From contig NZ_CP063845.1 of NCBI RefSeq assembly GCF_021018745.1, positions 3,782,001 to 3,846,000 of the forward strand: DNA of 64,000 nucleotides. The letters are read 5' to 3'. A model generated the notes under the pieces. That model ran no database searches. It saw only the letters and a list, made by a program, of their open reading frames with translations, and had not been told where the DNA came from. The position numbers and the translations under genes were made by a program. Origin of the DNA: Gloeobacter morelensis MG652769. GTDB taxonomy: Bacteria; Cyanobacteriota; Cyanobacteriia; Gloeobacterales; Gloeobacteraceae. Shown here one piece after another: positions 35,243-61,252 of the stretch (its first letter is position 1; every line of letters begins with the position of its first letter).

Positions 35243-37855
35243 TCAAGGACGCCGCCCCGGCCGCGCAAACAATTCAGCCATGGGCCGCCAGTCCCCGGAA
35301 GGGATGAACGCCGACCAGTAGTAGGGGTGGCGGTAATGGCGGCTACGGAGCATGGTCAGTTGCACCCGGCGCAACGCATCGCCACTGCCTGCCCCGGCGC
35401 GCAATTCTCGATAGAAACCGACCATCAGATCTCTGGTCGCGGCGTCCTCCACCCGCCAGAGGCTCACCAGTTGGCTTTTGGCTCCCGCCAGGGTCAGGGC
35501 ACGCCGCAGACCATAGACGCCCTCACCGCCTTCGACATCCCCAAGTCCGGTCTCGCAGGCGGAAAGTACGGCAAGTCGGGTTCCGCGCAAGTCGAGCCCG
35601 GCCACCTCCAGGGCGGTAAGCACACCGTCATCGCCGCCGCTTTTGCGGACATTCACCCCCGCCAGGGCCAGCCCCGAGCGCAACAGTGGGTTTTCCGCCT
35701 GGGCAGTCGGGTGCAAAAAGAAGCCGTGGGTGGCAATGTGCAGAATGCTCGGGGCGGACGAACGCTTGAGGGCACTTTCGGTGGCCGCCGCCTGGGTGAG
35801 CACCTGTGCGTCCGGCAGCAGTTCGGCAAGGGCCGCGACTTCTTTGGCGGTGGCAGGGAGCGCCGCAAAACCGAGTGCATCAAACTTTCCCGCCCGCGTT
35901 TCGATTTTGCCCGCCGCAGCGAGGCGATCGACAACGGTACCCGCCCGGTCAAAATCCGGATCGGCCATCAATAGCGGTGGGCGTCGAAGACTGGCCGGGC
36001 GAGCCAGCCGCAGCAGATCCCGGCCGGAACCCAGGTACTGGATGGTAAAGCGTTCCACCAGAAATCGACCCTGCTCATCTACCAGAGCCGCAAAGGGGAT
36101 CAAATTGAGCGCCCCGTCGGGGGAGACCAGCAGCCTTCGCCGCCCGCCGAGCTTGGCGCGCACCGGCTCCATCAGCGCTCGGTCGAGTCGGCGGGCGGCG
36201 GCTTTGAGTTCAGCTGTCGGCAGGGCGCTGTTGCGCACGGCATTGCGAAAGACCTGGGCTGTCGCGTCGATCGCCTGGGCCTCGCCTAGATCCACCCAGT
36301 CCAGTGCGCCGCGCCCGTCGAACAGGTAGACCGCGTAACGCGGCGCCGCGAACTGCTCGCTAAAGCGGGTGGCTTGCAAGTTGAGTGGCCGGTAGAGCAT
36401 CAATTCCACCAGGACAGTCGCGTCTGGAATCTGCCTTTGTACCGACTGCGGGTCGGCCGGAGCAGAAAGGGCGACAAACTCGGCGCTGCGGCGGCTGAGG
36501 GCGGCTTCGAGGCGTTCGGCTTCGCGCTGCAAAGACTGCGCCGCGCCGGCGTCCGCCGCCACCGGCACCTCCTCCCCCAGACCCCCGAAAGCCAGGGTGG
36601 CAAGCCGCGTGCGGGCGGTAGTCCACTGGTCGAGAAGCACCTGGTCGGCGGGGGCAAGGTGCGCGCGCAGTGCTGCGAGGCTGCCGCTCTGGACATCGAG
36701 GATACGGCCCTTGCGCCGCAGGACGGTCGCGAAGGCCAGCCGGGCGGCGGCGGGGTCGGCGGGGGAAGAACGCAGGTGCAGCGAGATGGCCGTGTCGGCG
36801 GCGGCGGTCAGAACCTGCAAGTAATCGCGCTTGTGGCGTTCTGAACCCGCGGCGAGCGAATCCGCCAGATTGTGCTCCTGGATCTCAAGGGCGCGGGCAA
36901 TCGACGTTCTGGCAAGCTCGGGCTCCCCCTGGCGGACCGCGAGCTGTGCCAAACCCTGCAGCGACTGGGCCAGACCGGGGTGGTTCGTCCCGAGCGAGGC
37001 TTCGCGGATGGCCAAGGCGCGGCGAAACAGCGGTTTCGCCTCGTCCAGGCGACCTTGATCGAGGTAGAGCCCGGCCAGATTGTGGAGACTGCGGGCCACA
37101 TCCGGGTGCTCCGGACCGTAGGCTTGTTCCCAGATGGCCCGGACGCGCAAGAACAGCGCCTCTGCACGCTCGACTTCGCCCCGCAACCGGCACAGTATCG
37201 CGAGACCGTGCAGGCTGCGGGCCGCCTCCGGGTGCTCCTCGCCCAGAGTTTGCTTCCAGACCGCCAGCGCCTCCAGAAAATACCCTTCTGCCGCCGCATC
37301 GCCGGTGCCGCGGGCCATCAGCAGCATCGCCAGGCCGTGCAGGCTCTTGGCCACCAGCGGGTGGTCCGCACCCAGAGTCTGGCGACGGATGGCCAGGGCC
37401 CGTTCGGCGAGCGGCTGCGCCTCGGTGAGGTTGCCGCGCGCCCCGTAGAGCATCGCCAGACCATAGAGACCCTTGGCGACCAGCGGGTGCGTTGGGCCAA
37501 AAGCGCGCTCGCGCAGGGCGAGCGTCCGCTCGAACAAAGCCTCCGCCTCGGCGTAATCGCCCAGCACCCCGTGCAAAACGGCCAGGTTGTTGAGGCTGTC
37601 GGCTACCCGCGGATGCTCCGCTCCAAGCGTCTGCTCCAGCAATTCCAGCCGCCGCCGATCTAGAACGATCGCCTCTGCAAACCGCCCGGCCATCTGCAGC
37701 GATTGGATTTGAGCGCTCAGGCGGTCCACTTCGGCCGCAGGCTGGTCCTGGGCGAAAAGTGCTCCAGGACAGCTCACCAGCAGCAGCACAGACGCCGCCA
37801 GCGACGCCAGCCCTCTTGCAAGCCGACGGGGCGGCTGATACTCGGATGCGGCCAT
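35243..37855 (-). CDS. Exported TPR-CHAT protease
   Basis: 870 residues: a signal peptide (LASLAASVLLLVSCPGALFA, an uncertain lipobox) and about six TPR repeats at 60-325, each with the kinesin-light-chain-like pattern HPEAARSLHGLA. A helical linker follows. A caspase-like CHAT domain lies at about 520-850, with the catalytic His (about 710) in ILHIATHGFF and Cys (about 767) in LAVLSACETGLG. The gene starts 21 bases after the DUF928 gene. CHAT is the protease fold of separase-like and CRISPR-associated TPR-CHAT enzymes. The target here is unknown. Confidence 0.9.
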   Translation of the reverse strand: MAASEYQPPRRLARGLASLAASVLLLVSCPGALFAQDQPAAEVDRLSAQIQSLQMAGRFAEAIVLDRRRLELLEQTLGAEHPRVADSLNNLAVLHGVLGDYAEAEALFERTLALRERAFGPTHPLVAKGLYGLAMLYGARGNLTEAQPLAERALAIRRQTLGADHPLVAKSLHGLAMLLMARGTGDAAAEGYFLEALAVWKQTLGEEHPEAARSLHGLAILCRLRGEVERAEALFLRVRAIWEQAYGPEHPDVARSLHNLAGLYLDQGRLDEAKPLFRRALAIREASLGTNHPGLAQSLQGLAQLAVRQGEPELARTSIARALEIQEHNLADSLAAGSERHKRDYLQVLTAAADTAISLHLRSSPADPAAARLAFATVLRRKGRILDVQSGSLAALRAHLAPADQVLLDQWTTARTRLATLAFGGLGEEVPVAADAGAAQSLQREAERLEAALSRRSAEFVALSAPADPQSVQRQIPDATVLVELMLYRPLNLQATRFSEQFAAPRYAVYLFDGRGALDWVDLGEAQAIDATAQVFRNAVRNSALPTAELKAAARRLDRALMEPVRAKLGGRRRLLVSPDGALNLIPFAALVDEQGRFLVERFTIQYLGSGRDLLRLARPASLRRPPLLMADPDFDRAGTVVDRLAAAGKIETRAGKFDALGFAALPATAKEVAALAELLPDAQVLTQAAATESALKRSSAPSILHIATHGFFLHPTAQAENPLLRSGLALAGVNVRKSGGDDGVLTALEVAGLDLRGTRLAVLSACETGLGDVEGGEGVYGLRRALTLAGAKSQLVSLWRVEDAATRDLMVGFYRELRAGAGSGDALRRVQLTMLRSRHYRHPYYWSAFIPSGDWRPMAELFARPGRRP

Positions 37856-38771: not shown

Positions 38772-41700
38772 TCAATATTTGCACGGGCGGTTGGGCGTGT
38801 TGTCGGGACCGGCTGCAAGCCAATCGCAGCCGCGGGCGACAAGGCCCGCCACATCGAGCTGCCAATCATTCCAGAGCAACACAGTTTTGTCGAGTCCTGC
38901 AGAAATCACCGTCCGGCTGTCGGGGCTGAATCCGACGCTCGTCACCGGGGCAGCGTGTCCTTCGAGCACTTTGAGCAGCGTCCCGTCAAGACTCCACAGC
39001 TTGACCAGGCGATCGTGCCCGGCGGTGGCGAGGGTGCGGCCGTCGGGGCTGAAGGCGAGCGCGCCGATCCAGTCTGCGTGGGCGGCCCAGCTCTGCCGTA
39101 GACGGCCGTCGGTGTCCCAAATCCGCACCATGCCCTCCTCGCCGGCGGCGGCGAGGAGGTGTCCGTCGGGGCTGTAGCGCAGCGAGTGCACCGGGCCGGT
39201 GTGCCCGCTCAATTGCCCGAGGGCGATGCCGTCGCGCCGCCATAGCCGCACCGTGCCGTCGCCGCCGCCGGTGGCGAGGCGATCGCCCCTGGGGCTGAAG
39301 GCGACATCGAGCACACCTCCTGGCGCGCCTCCAAAGGCGGGCTGCAATGCCCCCTGCGCATTCCAGAGGCGAACGGTCTCGCCGGCGGCGGCGAGGAGGT
39401 GTCCGTCGGGGCTGTAGCGCAGCGAGTGCACCGGGCCGGTGTGCCCGCTCAACTGCCCGAGGGCGATGCCGTCGCGCCGCCATAGCCGCACCGTGCCGTC
39501 GCCGCCGCCGGTGGCGAGGCGATCGCCCCTGGGGCTGAAGGCGACATCGAGCACCGCCTGCGCGTGGCCGCGCAGGATTGCCAGCGGCTTGCCGTCGCGG
39601 CTCCACAGGCGAATCGTCCGATCGTCACCCGCACTGGCGACGATCGCTCCGTCCGGGCTGAAGCGGGCACTCAGCACCCCGTCGGTGTGGCCATAAAGGG
39701 TCCGGCGCAGGGGCGGCTGCAGCCGCCACAGCCGCACGGTGCGGTCGAGGCTGGCGGTGGCGAGGGTCTGGCCGTCGCCACCGAAGCTGAGGGAGGTGAT
39801 GTCGGAACTATGGCCCTGCAGCACCCCGGCGGGAGTACCGTCGGGCCGCCATAGCCGCACGGTGCGGTCGAAGCCGGCGGTGGCCAGAAGCGCGCCGTCC
39901 GGGCTGAAGGCCACCGCAAAGACGGCTTCGCTGTGGCCGCGCAGGGATTTGAGCGCATGGCCCTCCCGGCTCCAGAGCCTGACCGCCCCGGTGCGATCGC
40001 CGGAGGCGATGACGCGCCCATCGGGACTGACCGCCACCGCCAGCGCCCAGTCGCGGTGACCGCGTAGCGTGGCGCTCAGACGGCCGTCGCGCCGCCATAG
40101 CCGGATGGCGCCGTCGGCCGAGGCGGCGGCAATCAAGTCGCCGTTGGGACTGAAGGCCAGGGCAAACACCGGATTGCCCGGAGCGGCCAGGGTCCGCAGC
40201 AACCGGCCTTCGACGCTCCACACCCGCACATAACCGTCGGAGCTGGCGGTGGCCAGGGTCGCCTCCCCGGGTGAGAAGCGCACGTCGTAGACACCGCGCG
40301 CATGGCGCAGCGTCGTCACCGGTCCGCCCTCGGACCGCTGCAGCGCCACGATGCCGTCGTCGCGGGCCACCGCCAGCAGCCCGCCGTCGGGGCTGAAGCG
40401 CACCTGAAGATTGGGTTTGTGATCGGCGCGGGTGCCGAGGGCCGCTATCTTGCGCACCAGGGTGCCGTCGGGGCGCCACAGCCGCACCTGCCCATCGACG
40501 CTGCCGCTTGCCAGCAGCGCTGCGCCGGGACTGAAGGCGACGCTTGTCACCCACTGCGGATGCTCGATGCGATTCCACTGCTGAACGGTGCTGAGCGCTT
40601 CGCGCAGGATGCTCTCTGTCTGGCGGGTCTGCCCGGCGCCCGCAGACAGGGTCTGCAACTGCTGTCTACCGGCTCGGAGGGCAGCCTGCAGACCCTCCAG
40701 CCCGCGGTGGGTGCTCAAAAAGCTGCGGGCGTAGGCGGTATGGGTGACGATCTCGTTGCGTTGGAGGTCGCCCACGAGCTTGAAGAGCACCCCGCCCAAC
40801 ACCGCCACCACCAGCGCCAGGGCTCCCATCGCCCCGGCCGCCAGCCTGGTGCGCACCAGGGCGCGTTGCTGGCGGTGCTGCAGGGCTGCCCGCTGCGCCA
40901 GGCCCGCCTCGATAAAGCGGTTGCTGGTGACGGTCAGCTCGTCGGCACAGCCCTGGTGCAACTCCTCAGCCTCCGCCAGCCGCGCGCCGCTGAGTAAAAA
41001 TTCGTCGCTGCGGCCGCTTTGCAACCACAGGTGCGCCGCCTGCTCGATCTGCCGCTGCACCCGCAATCGGGCCCGGTTTTCTTCGAGCCACCAGCGCAAA
41101 GTCGACCAGTTGCGGATCAGCACCTCGTGGGCGACCTCCACGGTCACCTCGGCGTGCAGCTGCTCGACGGCCCCGGCAACGTCATCGTCGGCAGCGGCGC
41201 CGCGTCCGACGCCGGTACCGGCGGTCTGCCCCCTGTCTTCCTCGGCGCCAATCACAATCAAACGTGCGTCGCTGAAAGCTTTGAGCGTCTGTTCGACCAG
41301 AGCCTCGCCATAGCGCGGCACCAGCAGATCCGCCCTGCGCACCCGCCTGCGGGTGTCGGGCATGCCTTCTCCCAACTGGGTGAGCGACAGAAAAAGCCAG
41401 TGGGCGCAGGCGCGGGCCTGGGGGCAGAGCGCGCCGAAAACCTCCTCGGCTTTGCGCTCCAGGGCGCCTTCGATGCCGCCTATCTGCTGCCGGTAGGCCC
41501 GCAGGGTGAGCCAGCCGCCCGCGCGCCGCTCCCACAACTGCTCCAGGACAAATTCAAGCAGCGCCAGTTCGCCGCGGCTGCGCTCGAGGTCCCGCAACAG
41601 CACCTCCACCAGTTGCGGCTCTACCTGCAGGCTGACCTGGGCGGCCGGTTTGAGGATAATGTCGCGGTAGTCAGCCTGGCTGAGTTCGGCGGACAGGTAG

Positions 41701-43808
41701 ACCACCGAGCGCTCCAGCAGCTGGTGCAACCCCCGCAACCGCAAAGCGCCCTCGGCACAATCCGCCCGCAGCGTGATCACCAGCTTGAAGCGGTCGGGCG
41801 CATGTTCTAGGGCGCCGAGCACCAGTTCGATAAATCGGTCGCACTCCAGGGCGGCGCTGAGGGTCAAAAGCTCCTCGAATTGGTCGACCACCAGCACCAG
41901 CACCGGCTCCGGCCGGGTGCGCAGCCAGCGGACAAACCCCTCCGCCCCCAGGTACACCAACCCCTCCAACTCCTGGCGCTCTGTCTCCCCTGCGCCCATC
42001 GTCCCCGACTCCCCCAGCCGTGCGATCAGATTCGCGAGCGGGTGGGTGCCCGGCTGCATCGCGCAAAGGCGCCAGCGCCCGCTGCCGGGAATCAGGCTCC
42101 CCTGCCGCAGCTGCGCCATCAACCCCGCCTGCACCAGGGACGATTTGCCACTGCCGCTCGCGCCAACCACCGCCACAAACGACCGCTCGTGCACCGCATG
42201 GAGCAACCGGGCGATGAGCGGCCCGCGACCGTAAAAAAATGGGGCCGCCACCTCTGCGAAGGCCCTTAGCCCCATATAAGGGCAAATCTTGATGTCAAAC
42301 GGTGCCGCCGGGTCGCCGGGGAGCACCTCGACAATGCCCTCGACCGAAGAAAGCCAGCTTTCGAAGTGTATGGCGTCTGCGGCCGCCTGATCTTGCAATT
42401 TAGCTATCCATTCAGCAACGCTCAATCCGGCTGCGGTGGCGACCAGGGTGCCCACTAGCGCCTCCCCAAAGCGCCCAGCTTCGCCGGGCGCCGACAACCC
42501 GGCCATCAGGCACAGGCCGGGGGTTTGCGGCCGCTGCTGGCTGTGTATCCAGCGGCGCACCGCCTCCAGGTTCTCAGGCTCCACGACCCAGTCGCAAATC
42601 CAGATGCGCCGGTTGGGGCACCCCGCCTGCATCTGCTGGCCCAACCACAAAAGACCCACGGCGGTGCCGCCGAGATCCAGATGCAGATCCCCAGCCCCAG
42701 TGGCGGTGATGCGCCCCCTAAGATAAATCAGCACCGTCTGCGCCACCACCGGTGGCTCGCCCGCCAGTTGCAGGGCCAGCCATGATCTGGGGACAAATTC
42801 AGCCGACCAATAGCGAATGTCGAACTGACCGAGGCGGGCCAGTTCGCGGCTAAGTTTCACGCCCACGCCTCGACCGAGCAGCGATTCGAGCACCAGCGCC
42901 CGGCGAGGCTGCGAAGCCCCTGTTGCCCGCGGCGAGCGGCCGAGCACCACCGGGGCCACTCCGCCGACAAAGCGCTTGGGAGTCTGCAGAGGATAGAGCC
43001 GAAAGCGCTCGCTCTCACCCAGGCGCCCTTTCTGGCGGTTCAACAGGCGCAACTGTTTGTTGATCTGATCGACATAGCGCAGGGTCTGGTAGTAGACGAA
43101 TTTGTACAGGCCGTCGATATCGATCACACCCTGGCGGTCCGCCGCTTCGCCGCGCAGACCGCGGATGAGATGGTAGGTGAACACGCCGTGGCCCAGTTCG
43201 GGAAACTCCCACGAGCGCTCGCCCGCGTCGCACGAAAGCAGCGCGTAGAGATTGCGCCGCTGGTGGGCATGCCGCTGCAGAGCCGCCACCAGCCGGCCGG
43301 CCGCATCGTCGGCCGGGACGAATCCGGCGCCGCTGTGGCAGGCATCCAGCCAGAGCAGCTGCTGATGGGCACGGCAACTGGCCAGGGACCCCAGCAACTC
43401 CGGCAGTCCCAGGGCAGTCTGCTCCAGAGCGCCCAGGCGCGTATCGGCCAGGCAAAAGAACACTTCGGTGCCGTGCCGGTCGAGCACGCCGTGACCGGAA
43501 AAATAAAACACCACCGTGTCCTCCGGCTGTGCCTCAGCGACCAGTTGCGCCAGACTGGCGCGCACCGCCCCCAGCCGCGGCGGTCGTCCGTCCTGGGCGT
43601 GGTGCACCAATTCCACGCGCCGCTCGAAGCGGCCGGTGAGCTCGGCCAGGGCCCCAGCCAGTTCCCGACAATCACAGACGGCGCATCCCAGCACTCCCAG
43701 CCCGGGATCTGCGTAGATATCGACGCCGACCATCAGCATCCAGAGCCTTCCCACCGCCGCGTGCAGCAGGCGGTCGTCTCGACTGGTGCGCAGACCCAAC
43801 GGCGGCAT
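38772..43808 (-). CDS. Caspase-STAND ATPase-WD40 protein
   Basis: 1678 residues with GGAG before the ATG. An N-terminal C14 caspase-like domain (about 20-240) has His106 in YFSGHG and Cys157 in LDACHSG. A linker domain runs to about 500. An nSTAND1-type NTPase follows from about 505 (CPYMGLRAFAEVAAPFFYGR), with Walker A GASGSGKSS and Walker B VLVLVVDQFEELL. A membrane helix lies near 1030 (AGAMGALALVVAVLGGVLFK). Fourteen WD40 repeats make two seven-bladed propellers to the end. The plan is sensor (WD40), switch (STAND) and protease effector, like eukaryotic Apaf-1. The trigger and substrates are unknown. Confidence 0.92.
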   Translation of the reverse strand: MPPLGLRTSRDDRLLHAAVGRLWMLMVGVDIYADPGLGVLGCAVCDCRELAGALAELTGRFERRVELVHHAQDGRPPRLGAVRASLAQLVAEAQPEDTVVFYFSGHGVLDRHGTEVFFCLADTRLGALEQTALGLPELLGSLASCRAHQQLLWLDACHSGAGFVPADDAAGRLVAALQRHAHQRRNLYALLSCDAGERSWEFPELGHGVFTYHLIRGLRGEAADRQGVIDIDGLYKFVYYQTLRYVDQINKQLRLLNRQKGRLGESERFRLYPLQTPKRFVGGVAPVVLGRSPRATGASQPRRALVLESLLGRGVGVKLSRELARLGQFDIRYWSAEFVPRSWLALQLAGEPPVVAQTVLIYLRGRITATGAGDLHLDLGGTAVGLLWLGQQMQAGCPNRRIWICDWVVEPENLEAVRRWIHSQQRPQTPGLCLMAGLSAPGEAGRFGEALVGTLVATAAGLSVAEWIAKLQDQAAADAIHFESWLSSVEGIVEVLPGDPAAPFDIKICPYMGLRAFAEVAAPFFYGRGPLIARLLHAVHERSFVAVVGASGSGKSSLVQAGLMAQLRQGSLIPGSGRWRLCAMQPGTHPLANLIARLGESGTMGAGETERQELEGLVYLGAEGFVRWLRTRPEPVLVLVVDQFEELLTLSAALECDRFIELVLGALEHAPDRFKLVITLRADCAEGALRLRGLHQLLERSVVYLSAELSQADYRDIILKPAAQVSLQVEPQLVEVLLRDLERSRGELALLEFVLEQLWERRAGGWLTLRAYRQQIGGIEGALERKAEEVFGALCPQARACAHWLFLSLTQLGEGMPDTRRRVRRADLLVPRYGEALVEQTLKAFSDARLIVIGAEEDRGQTAGTGVGRGAAADDDVAGAVEQLHAEVTVEVAHEVLIRNWSTLRWWLEENRARLRVQRQIEQAAHLWLQSGRSDEFLLSGARLAEAEELHQGCADELTVTSNRFIEAGLAQRAALQHRQQRALVRTRLAAGAMGALALVVAVLGGVLFKLVGDLQRNEIVTHTAYARSFLSTHRGLEGLQAALRAGRQQLQTLSAGAGQTRQTESILREALSTVQQWNRIEHPQWVTSVAFSPGAALLASGSVDGQVRLWRPDGTLVRKIAALGTRADHKPNLQVRFSPDGGLLAVARDDGIVALQRSEGGPVTTLRHARGVYDVRFSPGEATLATASSDGYVRVWSVEGRLLRTLAAPGNPVFALAFSPNGDLIAAASADGAIRLWRRDGRLSATLRGHRDWALAVAVSPDGRVIASGDRTGAVRLWSREGHALKSLRGHSEAVFAVAFSPDGALLATAGFDRTVRLWRPDGTPAGVLQGHSSDITSLSFGGDGQTLATASLDRTVRLWRLQPPLRRTLYGHTDGVLSARFSPDGAIVASAGDDRTIRLWSRDGKPLAILRGHAQAVLDVAFSPRGDRLATGGGDGTVRLWRRDGIALGQLSGHTGPVHSLRYSPDGHLLAAAGETVRLWNAQGALQPAFGGAPGGVLDVAFSPRGDRLATGGGDGTVRLWRRDGIALGQLSGHTGPVHSLRYSPDGHLLAAAGEEGMVRIWDTDGRLRQSWAAHADWIGALAFSPDGRTLATAGHDRLVKLWSLDGTLLKVLEGHAAPVTSVGFSPDSRTVISAGLDKTVLLWNDWQLDVAGLVARGCDWLAAGPDNTPNRPCKY
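39138..39554 (-). repeat. Near-identical 240-bp tandem duplication of two WD40 blades
   Basis: Bases 39138-39314 and 39378-39554 (177 bp each, offset exactly 240) differ at one position (39212 versus 39452). They encode blades 9-10 and 11-12. The unit between them has diverged, and blade 10 has lost two residues relative to blade 12 (AAAGETVRLW against AAAGEEGMVRIW). Confidence 0.85.
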
Positions 43809-58148: not shown

Positions 58149-59690
58149 ATGCTTAAAAATCGACCCGTTTACCACCGAGACCGCTCATTTCCGGTGCCGG
58201 GCGCAGTGCAAAGAGCCGGCCGGCCGATGCCCTCTTGGGGGCGCAGTCTTGGAGGCTTTAAGCTCTTTCGCCCGCGGGACATATTCGGCCGATTCGGGGT
58301 GCGGCTGCGGCTGCTTGCATGGTGCATATTGCTGATGATTCTCTTTGGGATAGTCTCCAGTCTGCTCATTGACCAGGTGCTTTTTTTCTATCTGGAAGAT
58401 CGCATCGAAGCGGCCCTCGCCCAGGAAGCGGCCGAATTTCGAGCGCTGACCACCAGCGACCGGCCAGGCGGCTCGCTTCCGGTGGTCGGGAAGCCTCTTA
58501 CAGGAGTTCTCGATGAATTTCTGACCCACAATATTCCACCCCAGAATACGTTCTATCTCACGTTTGCCGATGGAGCGTTTCACAAAGCCAGCCCGCAGGC
58601 ATTGCCGCCCCTGCTCGCACCGGATTCGCCCCTCACCCGGCGGCTTGCGGGGGTGAGCCTGCCGCAGCGCAGCGAAGTGGTGACCGCCGACGGGCAGCGC
58701 TATGTCTATCTGAGCGAGCCGTTGAAAGCGGCGGGCCGGACGCGCGGCGGGTTGGTTCTGGCCCACTGCGTTTCCTGCGAGCGCCAGTTTCTCGATCAGT
58801 GCCTCGCCGTCATCGGGGTCATCTTTCTCTTGGCGCTCGCCCTCGCTTCAGTGATCGCCTGGTTCGGGACCGGGCGCGTGCTTGCTCCCCTGCAGCAGCT
58901 ACTGCGCACCGTGCGCGCCATCGACGAATCGGATCTTACCCGGCGGGTGCACCTGCACGAACAGAGCAACGAATGGAGCGAATTGGCCTGTGCCTTCAAT
59001 GCCATGCTCGGCCGTTTGGAGGGGGCCTTTCAAACGCAGCGCCACTTTGTCAACGAAGTCAGCCACGAACTGCGCACACCGCTTACGATCATCCGTGGGC
59101 ACCTCGAACTCATCGGCGACGACCCCCACGAGCGCGCCGAGACGATGCACATCGTCCACGACGAGCTGGGCCGCATGCACCGCTTTGTCGAAAGTTTGTT
59201 GCTGCTGGACCGCCTGGAGCGGCACGACGGCTTGCATCTGGAGCCCCTCGAAGTGGACGCGCTGACGCGCGAGTGTTTCGCCAAGGCCCGCGGTCTGGGA
59301 CGACGCCAGTGGCAGTTGCCCTCCACCGCTTCCGGCTGCCGCATCCACGCCGATCGCCACTGCCTGACCCAGGCGGTGCTCAACCTCGCCCAAAACGCCG
59401 TCAAATTCACCACCCATCAAGATCGCATCGCCATCGGCTCCAGCCTGGTAGACGGCCGGGTGCATCTGTGGGTAACCGACAGCGGCCCCGGTGTGCCCCT
59501 CGAAGCCCAGGGGCGCATCTTCGAGTGCTTCGAGCGGGGAAGCTGCCACCGCCACATCGAAGGCAACGGCCTGGGTCTTGCCATCGTGCGCTCGATTGCC
59601 GTCGCCCACGGTGGTGAAATCCGCCTGCAGAGCGTCCCCGGCCACGGCGCTACATTCATACTCGTGCTGCCCCTCGCGCCTCAAAACTGA
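58149..59690 (+). CDS. Two-helix membrane sensor histidine kinase (HAMP-HisKA)
   Basis: 513 residues: membrane helices at about 54-76 and 217-238 flank a periplasmic sensor domain of about 140 residues that includes GLVLAHCVSCERQFLDQCL with paired Cys. HAMP (FGTGRVLAPLQQLLRTVRAI) is followed by HisKA with the phospho-acceptor His in VSHELRTPLTIIRGHLELI, then HATPase_c with NLAQNAVKFT, VTDSGPGVP and GNGLGLAIVRSI. No response regulator is adjacent. The basic N terminus is long for the family; translation may start later. A palindrome lies upstream. Confidence 0.9.
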   Translation: MLKNRPVYHRDRSFPVPGAVQRAGRPMPSWGRSLGGFKLFRPRDIFGRFGVRLRLLAWCILLMILFGIVSSLLIDQVLFFYLEDRIEAALAQEAAEFRALTTSDRPGGSLPVVGKPLTGVLDEFLTHNIPPQNTFYLTFADGAFHKASPQALPPLLAPDSPLTRRLAGVSLPQRSEVVTADGQRYVYLSEPLKAAGRTRGGLVLAHCVSCERQFLDQCLAVIGVIFLLALALASVIAWFGTGRVLAPLQQLLRTVRAIDESDLTRRVHLHEQSNEWSELACAFNAMLGRLEGAFQTQRHFVNEVSHELRTPLTIIRGHLELIGDDPHERAETMHIVHDELGRMHRFVESLLLLDRLERHDGLHLEPLEVDALTRECFAKARGLGRRQWQLPSTASGCRIHADRHCLTQAVLNLAQNAVKFTTHQDRIAIGSSLVDGRVHLWVTDSGPGVPLEAQGRIFECFERGSCHRHIEGNGLGLAIVRSIAVAHGGEIRLQSVPGHGATFILVLPLAPQN

Positions 59691-59699
59691 GGACAAGTG

Positions 59700-60039
59700 T
59701 GAGGTACCAGGCTGATTGGCTGATACCCATACCGCCATACCGATACCCGGCAACGTCGAAAGCACATTCAGACCGGGGATCAACCCACCGACATCTATCA
59801 GCAACTGCAACGCCCCGACCACCCCGACCAGATCCAGATGGGCCGAGGGAGGAGCGGTCGAGGCACTGACCTTGAAACTGGAAGCAGCGGTCAGATTCAC
59901 TCCCGCCACCTTGACTAGTGCTGGCGTTCTCAAGCAGCGATACCTGGATCTGCATGGCACTAACCGCGACGGCATAAGCCGCCACCCCGTTGATGGTCAC
60001 AGAGCTGAGGTTGTTTAGATTCGTGCCATTGATTAACAA
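59700..60039 (-). pseudogene. Relic of an IPT/TIG-domain surface protein
   Basis: Reading down from 60039, one frame gives LINGTNLNNLSSVTINGVAA and AVSAMQIQVSLLENAST, a typical IPT/TIG beta-sandwich start. The frame then breaks near 59930, and another frame continues KVAGVNLTAASSFKVSAS with the strand pattern of the domain end. No start codon, signal peptide or stop in proper context is present. The remainder runs antisense into the kinase gene. It is therefore a frameshifted fragment of a larger surface protein. Confidence 0.5.
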
Positions 60040-60090
60040 GGTTGAGGAGCGGGGAGAGCGCTTCCGCGCCCTGGTCGCCGCGCTCGCACG

Positions 60091-60198
60091 CTAGGACGGG
60101 TCGCGCTCGATGATAAACAGCAGTGCCGCCGCCGCCATAAAGGGCACCACCAGGGTGGTGATGATCACCAGGGCCGGGAACACGTTGTAGGACTGCAT
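60091..60198 (-). CDS. psaZ: Photosystem I subunit PsaZ (35 residues)
   Basis: Too short for most gene calls. A single membrane helix (FPALVIITTLVVPFMAAAAL, then LFIIERDPS) follows the N-terminal MQSYNV. I recognise it as the Gloeobacter-specific PSI subunit PsaZ, which occupies the place of PsaI. The end also resembles PsaI (LLF-IxE). AGGAGG at 60205-60210 precedes the ATG by seven bases. It is alone, with its own promoter and a possible light-regulatory element upstream. Identity rests on recall, not a search. Confidence 0.75.
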   Translation of the reverse strand: MQSYNVFPALVIITTLVVPFMAAAALLFIIERDPS

Positions 60199-60229
60199 GG
60201 TAGACCTCCTGACGGTGCTTCAGCCTCAG

Positions 60230-60235
60230 AGTATA
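60230..60235 (-). promoter_or_regulatory. Possible -10 box of psaZ
   Basis: TATACT (minus strand, 5 of 6 bases of the consensus) lies 32 bases upstream of the psaZ start and gives a short leader with the ribosome site. A matching -35 hexamer is poor, which would fit an activated promoter. Confidence 0.4.
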
Positions 60236-60262
60236 GCGCCTCGGGCACAGCAGACCGCCTGC

Positions 60263-60280
60263 TTTACAACTTGTTAAGCA
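60263..60280 (+). promoter_or_regulatory. HLR1-like element upstream of psaZ
   Basis: TTTACAACTTGTTAAGCA has two direct half-sites in the 8+2+8 layout of the HLR1 box bound by RpaB. It matches about 12-13 of 16 defined positions; the second half deviates (GTTAAG for GTTACA). It sits about 28 bases upstream of the -10 candidate, where HLR1 boxes of PSI genes often activate. Confidence 0.35.
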
Positions 60281-60379
60281 GCTGCTGCCGCGAGTCCGGT
60301 AGGTGCGCCCTTGACCCGGTACCGCCACCTGTGGCATGCTCCCCTGAGCAGTTAGGCAAGCACAGTCCAGGAGGAGAAT

Positions 60380-61252
60380 ATGGAGCCCCGTCATCCCGAG
60401 CGCTGGTCGATCCGGATTGCCCGTTCAGGGCGCGAAGCGGTGGTCATCGACGTGAGGCCGGCGGCGGCAGTGTGCGCGGCGGTGCTGGCCCTGGTGGGGC
60501 TTTTTGCGGGAGTGCGTCTGGCACTGAACCATTTTGAGCTCACCGTGAGCGGCTTTGAGCGCACGGTGAGCGGCGAGCGCGAGCGCAACACGGCGCTTGA
60601 GGCGCAGGCGGGCCGGCTGCTCGGGCGGCTCGAGCAACTCGAAGCGGAGGTGCGCTCTTTACAGCGCCAGGCGAACCTCGCGCCGACCATCGACGCCACC
60701 GCTCAAGGGGGAGCGGGCGCCCCCGAACCGGGGGCCGGAGCGGGAATGATGCTTTCGATCGCCAATTTGCGCCTCGACAAACTCTCCAAGGCGATGCGCG
60801 CCAAAAAGACGATCGCCCTGGCCCTTGCGGAGCGCTCCGCCCGCCCGGCGGGATTGCCCGTGGCGGGGGCGCGCCTTACCTCGGGCTTCGGGCCGCGCCG
60901 CGACCCGGTGATGGGCGGCGCCGAATTTCATAGCGGCCTCGATTTTGCCGGCCCTTACGGTCTACCCATTCGCGCCACCGCCCCCGGCCGGGTGAGCCGG
61001 GCGGGCTGGGGGAGCGGCTGGGGTCAGCATGTCGTGATCGATCACGGACACGGCTTCGAGACGCTTTACGCGCACCTTTCGCGCCTTGAAGTGCGCGCAG
61101 GCGACAGCCTGGGGCGCGGCGACCTGGTCGGGCGCATGGGCAGCACCGGCCGCTCTACGGGCACCCACCTGCACTACACGGTCTACCTCGACGGCCAGGC
61201 GGTCGATCCAAGCCCATACCTGGGCGAAGCGCCGAGCGCTCCTGCCCTATGA
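60380..61252 (+). CDS. M23 metallopeptidase (LytM type)
   Basis: 290 residues. A membrane anchor at about 30-50 is followed by a coiled coil at about 60-100. The LytM domain lies at about 165-285, with the zinc His and Asp in EFHSGLDFAGP and the second site in STGTHLHYTVYLDG. It cuts peptidoglycan crosslinks or activates other hydrolases. The ATG has GGAGGAGA upstream. The 3' end overlaps the convergent HNH gene by six bases. Confidence 0.92.
   Translation: MEPRHPERWSIRIARSGREAVVIDVRPAAAVCAAVLALVGLFAGVRLALNHFELTVSGFERTVSGERERNTALEAQAGRLLGRLEQLEAEVRSLQRQANLAPTIDATAQGGAGAPEPGAGAGMMLSIANLRLDKLSKAMRAKKTIALALAERSARPAGLPVAGARLTSGFGPRRDPVMGGAEFHSGLDFAGPYGLPIRATAPGRVSRAGWGSGWGQHVVIDHGHGFETLYAHLSRLEVRAGDSLGRGDLVGRMGSTGRSTGTHLHYTVYLDGQAVDPSPYLGEAPSAPAL

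Follow-up and report, generated by a model that had tools for sequence, protein, structure and literature searches.

Small membrane subunits are easily overlooked in genomes, and a 35-codon open reading frame in a spacer of a genome of Gloeobacter, a cyanobacterium that lacks thylakoids, raises two questions: is it a true photosystem I (PSI) gene, and if so, which subunit does it encode? The frame lies in a window of 64,000 nucleotides, the whole stretch of DNA analyzed here (G000:C1:3782001-3846000), in a genome of 5.10 Mb on three contigs (G000). The initial annotation had named it psaZ and had used it to anchor a taxonomic reading as Gloeobacter, which proved right, as the genome is of that genus. 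For PsaZ, the papers on which we draw below cite Inoue et al. 2004 as their source. The best explanation, to which we assign a probability of roughly 97%, is that psaZ is the gene for PSI subunit VIII (PsaI) of the Gloeobacterales, a 35-residue single-helix membrane protein at the PsaI position. As an annotation, psaZ is correct and ordinary; earlier publications already cover the protein, where it sits in PSI, and the failure of annotations to include it.

The reading frame and its upstream region

Positions 60091-60198 contain exactly one 35-residue frame with a stop codon. It runs on the minus strand from 60198 to 60091 and reads MQSYNVFPALVIITTLVVPFMAAAALLFIIERDPS before its TAG stop, with one transmembrane helix. 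The plus-strand frame of the same positions is unrelated to PsaZ. In a PDB sequence search, residues 2-35 are identical (34/34, E 2.2e-17) to chain aI of entry 7f4v, the "Photosystem I reaction center subunit Z" of G. violaceus PSI, so a chance match to PsaZ can be excluded. At E<=10 the search returned only two further chains, both of subunit VIII, namely 9e0j_Q (E 5.1e-06) and 7qco_I (E 0.11). The proposed 35-codon gene is thereby borne out, the minus strand now being added to it, and the lack of similarity over the helix that had been named as grounds for rejecting it is not what alignment gives, the peptides being the same.

The strong AGGAGG site that had been reported is indeed present on the minus strand (60210-60205), six bases 5' of the ATG; it is retained in G000, G001, and G002 and is inexact in G003 and G004. 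Further upstream, TATACT (60230-60235, minus strand) is a candidate -10-like box, found as TATACT, TATATT, or TATAGT among the Gloeobacteraceae copies. A promoter and terminator scan of 59700-60420 gave no full sigma-70 match and no terminator. A block that is conserved before psaZ in the Gloeobacteraceae copies, TTAACAAGTTGTAAAGC (60260-60278, minus strand), may be a regulator site, its likeness to HLR1 being at chance level only. In five Gloeobacteraceae genomes, the best HLR1 (RpaB) site upstream of psaZ scored 12-14 of a possible 16, and the regions before psaA, psaB, psaD, psaF, and psaL scored 9-12. Since 38 of 300 random stretches of the window (400 bases each) likewise score at least 12, we make no HLR1 claim for psaZ.

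Distribution and selection

The gene is present as a single copy in its own genome (100% identity). When 39 genomes were searched with psaZ, 10 gave a match at E<=10, eight of which come from Gloeobacterales, the order of the window genome, represented by nine genomes (G000-G008); their E-values run from 2.0e-17 to 0.11. Two matches outside the order were set aside: the match in G031 lies inside a 632-residue frame and was discarded as chance, and that in G027 falls at the same place as a match to the PsaI family PF00796 and is a genuine PsaI. The ninth Gloeobacterales genome, G005, yielded no psaZ match, likely because of an assembly gap, as a full murD match is missing there as well. Four complete Gloeobacterales genomes are recorded, those of G. 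violaceus, G. morelensis, G. kilaueensis, and Anthocerotibacter panamensis (PMC13237429).

All 35 residues are the same in G000, G001, and G002, and the codon differences between the pairs of these genomes (3, 2, and 3 of 35) are all synonymous, two of them separating G000 from G001. Replacements occur in other pairs: of 33 codons compared between G000 and G003, 8 differ synonymously and 7 non-synonymously, and of 32 compared between G008 and G007, 14 and 4, respectively. Judged by these codon comparisons, psaZ is under purifying selection among close relatives.

Relationship of PsaZ to PsaI

Two profile tests, one in each direction, bear on the homology of PsaZ and PsaI. An earlier search with alignment A1 was abandoned as circular, because three PsaI rows were included in it, and was replaced by a profile restricted to six PsaZ sequences from Gloeobacterales. 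Among 177,635 distinct PDB sequences, this profile found 50 matches at E<=1: one PSI subunit Z, 49 chains of subunit VIII / PsaI, and nothing else. The best PsaI chain apart from those of 7f4v and 9e0j had an E-value of 5.5e-06.

In the reverse direction, a PsaI profile built from 20 cyanobacterial sequences was applied to the six PsaZ sequences, with 1200 shuffled PsaZ sequences as a control. The scores were 25.0, 22.1, 20.7, 19.4, 14.2, and 8.7 bits, compared with 12.0 bits for the best shuffle and at most 1.3 bits for PsaJ. The five other Gloeobacterales sequences (14.2-25.0 bits) hence stand clear of the control; the lowest value is that of the window's own PsaZ, which two of the listed shuffles (12.0 and 9.7 bits) exceed, so that its link to PsaI needs the intermediate sequences. 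Profile-profile comparison by hhalign gave a probability of 95.2% for PsaZ-PsaI and 1.7% for PsaZ-PsaJ; an identity with PsaJ (PF01701) was rejected on the latter value and on the 1.1 bits that the PsaJ profile gives the window peptide.

Both proteins fall into the same length class, have one helix, and share a conserved P, L, and IE near the end, and they occupy the same site in PSI (PMC9000952). They differ in that PsaZ lies under the Pfam detection limit: the window PsaZ is below the cut-off of PF00796, a model tuned to non-Gloeobacterales sequences. Across the class, PF00796 exceeds its cut-off in 0/9 Gloeobacterales and in 28 of the 30 other genomes, and the distributions of PsaZ and PsaI therefore complement each other. 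Chain Q of 9e0j, a 32-residue member of the same family deposited as PsaI (subunit VIII), aligns with residues 4-32 of the query (34 residues) and reads, in the aligned part, as in G007, whose PsaZ is 53% identical to that of the window. On sequence grounds, then, PsaZ is the Gloeobacterales form of PsaI and no separate kind of subunit, a conclusion also drawn in PMC10694217 (2023). The initial reading accordingly stands as regards the identity of the gene and is refined as regards the nature of its product, while the status of psaZ as missed by annotation was already in print.

Gene order and the rearranged spacer

Among the 28 genomes with psaI over the cut-off, 18 have psaI no more than about 1 kb from psaL; for psaZ, this holds in none of the seven Gloeobacterales in which both genes were found. 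The initial annotation had placed psaZ apart from other photosynthesis genes, and this is what we see: Pfam scans of 48 long open reading frames of the window detected no photosystem family, at least about 0.95 Mb separates psaL, psaF, and psaAB from psaZ, and the closest PSI gene seen, psaD, is 32.6 kb off, beyond the window edge. Elsewhere, the window encodes a 1678-residue nSTAND1 NTPase with WD40 repeats (38772-43808, minus strand) and, near it, a CHAT-TPR protein (35243-37855).

A second small PSI gene came to light next to psaF. In all eight Gloeobacterales genomes with psaF, a single-helix frame of 36-41 residues begins 10-18 bases 3' of it (L057-L064). This is PsaJ missed by Pfam, PF01701 being over its cut-off in 0/9 Gloeobacterales, and it has been described before (PMC10694217).

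The sequence beside psaZ had been called decayed, and it is. A remnant of the 3' end of murD (60042-60094, plus strand) converges on psaZ, their stop codons overlapping in CTAG (60091-60094), and a degenerate repeat copy (59691-60041) stands in for the rest of murD. Intact murD converges on psaZ in the Gloeobacteraceae genomes G001, G003, and G004, with the same CTAG overlap of stops in G001; that of the window genome is displaced to G000:C1:1998265-1999584, about 1.84 Mb from psaZ. The repeat has longer copies elsewhere in the genome (76-83% similar), and its family gave five matches in the own genome (itself included), seven in G001, one in G002, and none in G003. The minus-strand frame 59656-60039 has no Pfam match. 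Because collinearity with G001 starts only at 60042 and runs rightwards from there (94.1% over 3,959 bases), because murD is displaced, and because the counterpart of the histidine kinase at 58149-59690 lies some 60 kb away from psaZ in G001, the spacer is a rearrangement junction when compared with G001, G003, and G004. This agrees with the low conservation of gene order described for the group (PMC13237429).

There is a break at this place in G002 too, where separate contigs carry psaZ and murD. These contigs (L056:1-264 and L066) end in the same sequence beside the break, and on the psaZ contig, which opens with it, this sequence begins an IS4/5-type transposase (PF13340, E 9e-09), so a mobile element sits at the same junction in this genome. 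Tentatively, and with more doubt than confidence, these observations could be joined into one picture: psaZ of the Gloeobacteraceae would be a stand-alone psaI that has its own conserved upstream element and is detached from psaL, and its junction with murD would have been broken at nearly the same place in two congeneric genomes (the window genome and, beside the IS4/5-type transposase, G002), leaving each time a duplicate murD tail that preserves the psaZ stop.

Alternative explanations

With the murD remnant and the degenerate repeat next to it, psaZ might itself be taken for a chance or decayed frame in a rearranged spacer, without expression. We consider this highly improbable: the peptide is identical to a protein observed in the isolated PSI complex of G. 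violaceus (PMC9000952), close relatives differ by silent changes only, and the start, stop, and Shine-Dalgarno sequence are intact, the decay ending outside the reading frame.

A little less improbable, but still very unlikely, is that PsaI was replaced by convergence at the same site, PsaZ being a Gloeobacter-specific subunit unrelated to it. Older papers do report that PsaI is missing and that only this group has PsaZ (PMC8386580, PMC7368068), pairwise identity to Synechocystis PsaI is just 20.0% (PMC9000952), and PF00796 is blind to PsaZ. Yet the Gloeobacterales-only profile singles out PsaI-type chains in the PDB, the PsaI profile recognizes the five other PsaZ above every shuffle and far above PsaJ, and the cryo-EM structure of G. 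violaceus PSI, which has PsaZ at the PsaI position, shows fold and site to be shared (PMC9000952). We therefore retain psaZ as the Gloeobacterales psaI.

Role in PSI and consequences for annotation

As the Gloeobacterales PsaI, PsaZ would take the PsaI position in every PSI monomer, the site and pigments being taken from published work; the published structure covers residues 3-33 and assigns two beta-carotenes (2 BCR) and no chlorophyll to it (PMC9000952). Its most likely role, which we infer, is to help stabilize the PsaL region and the trimer and to position carotenoids. In the window organism, psaZ is presumed to be expressed alone from the minus strand, from a putative promoter of its own and with a strong Shine-Dalgarno sequence.

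The peptide matches no Pfam or NCBIfam family at E<=10, so that automatic annotation misses psaZ or leaves it unnamed. This supports the initial remark that gene callers easily miss it, as do the unannotated copies reported in G. violaceus, G. morelensis, and A. panamensis (PMC10694217). A core PSI subunit of the earliest-branching cyanobacteria is thus confirmed to be without a model in automatic annotation, and claims that Gloeobacterales "lack PsaI" therefore rest on missed or misnamed genes. The profile built here from six distinct PsaZ sequences would be a remedy for this gap.
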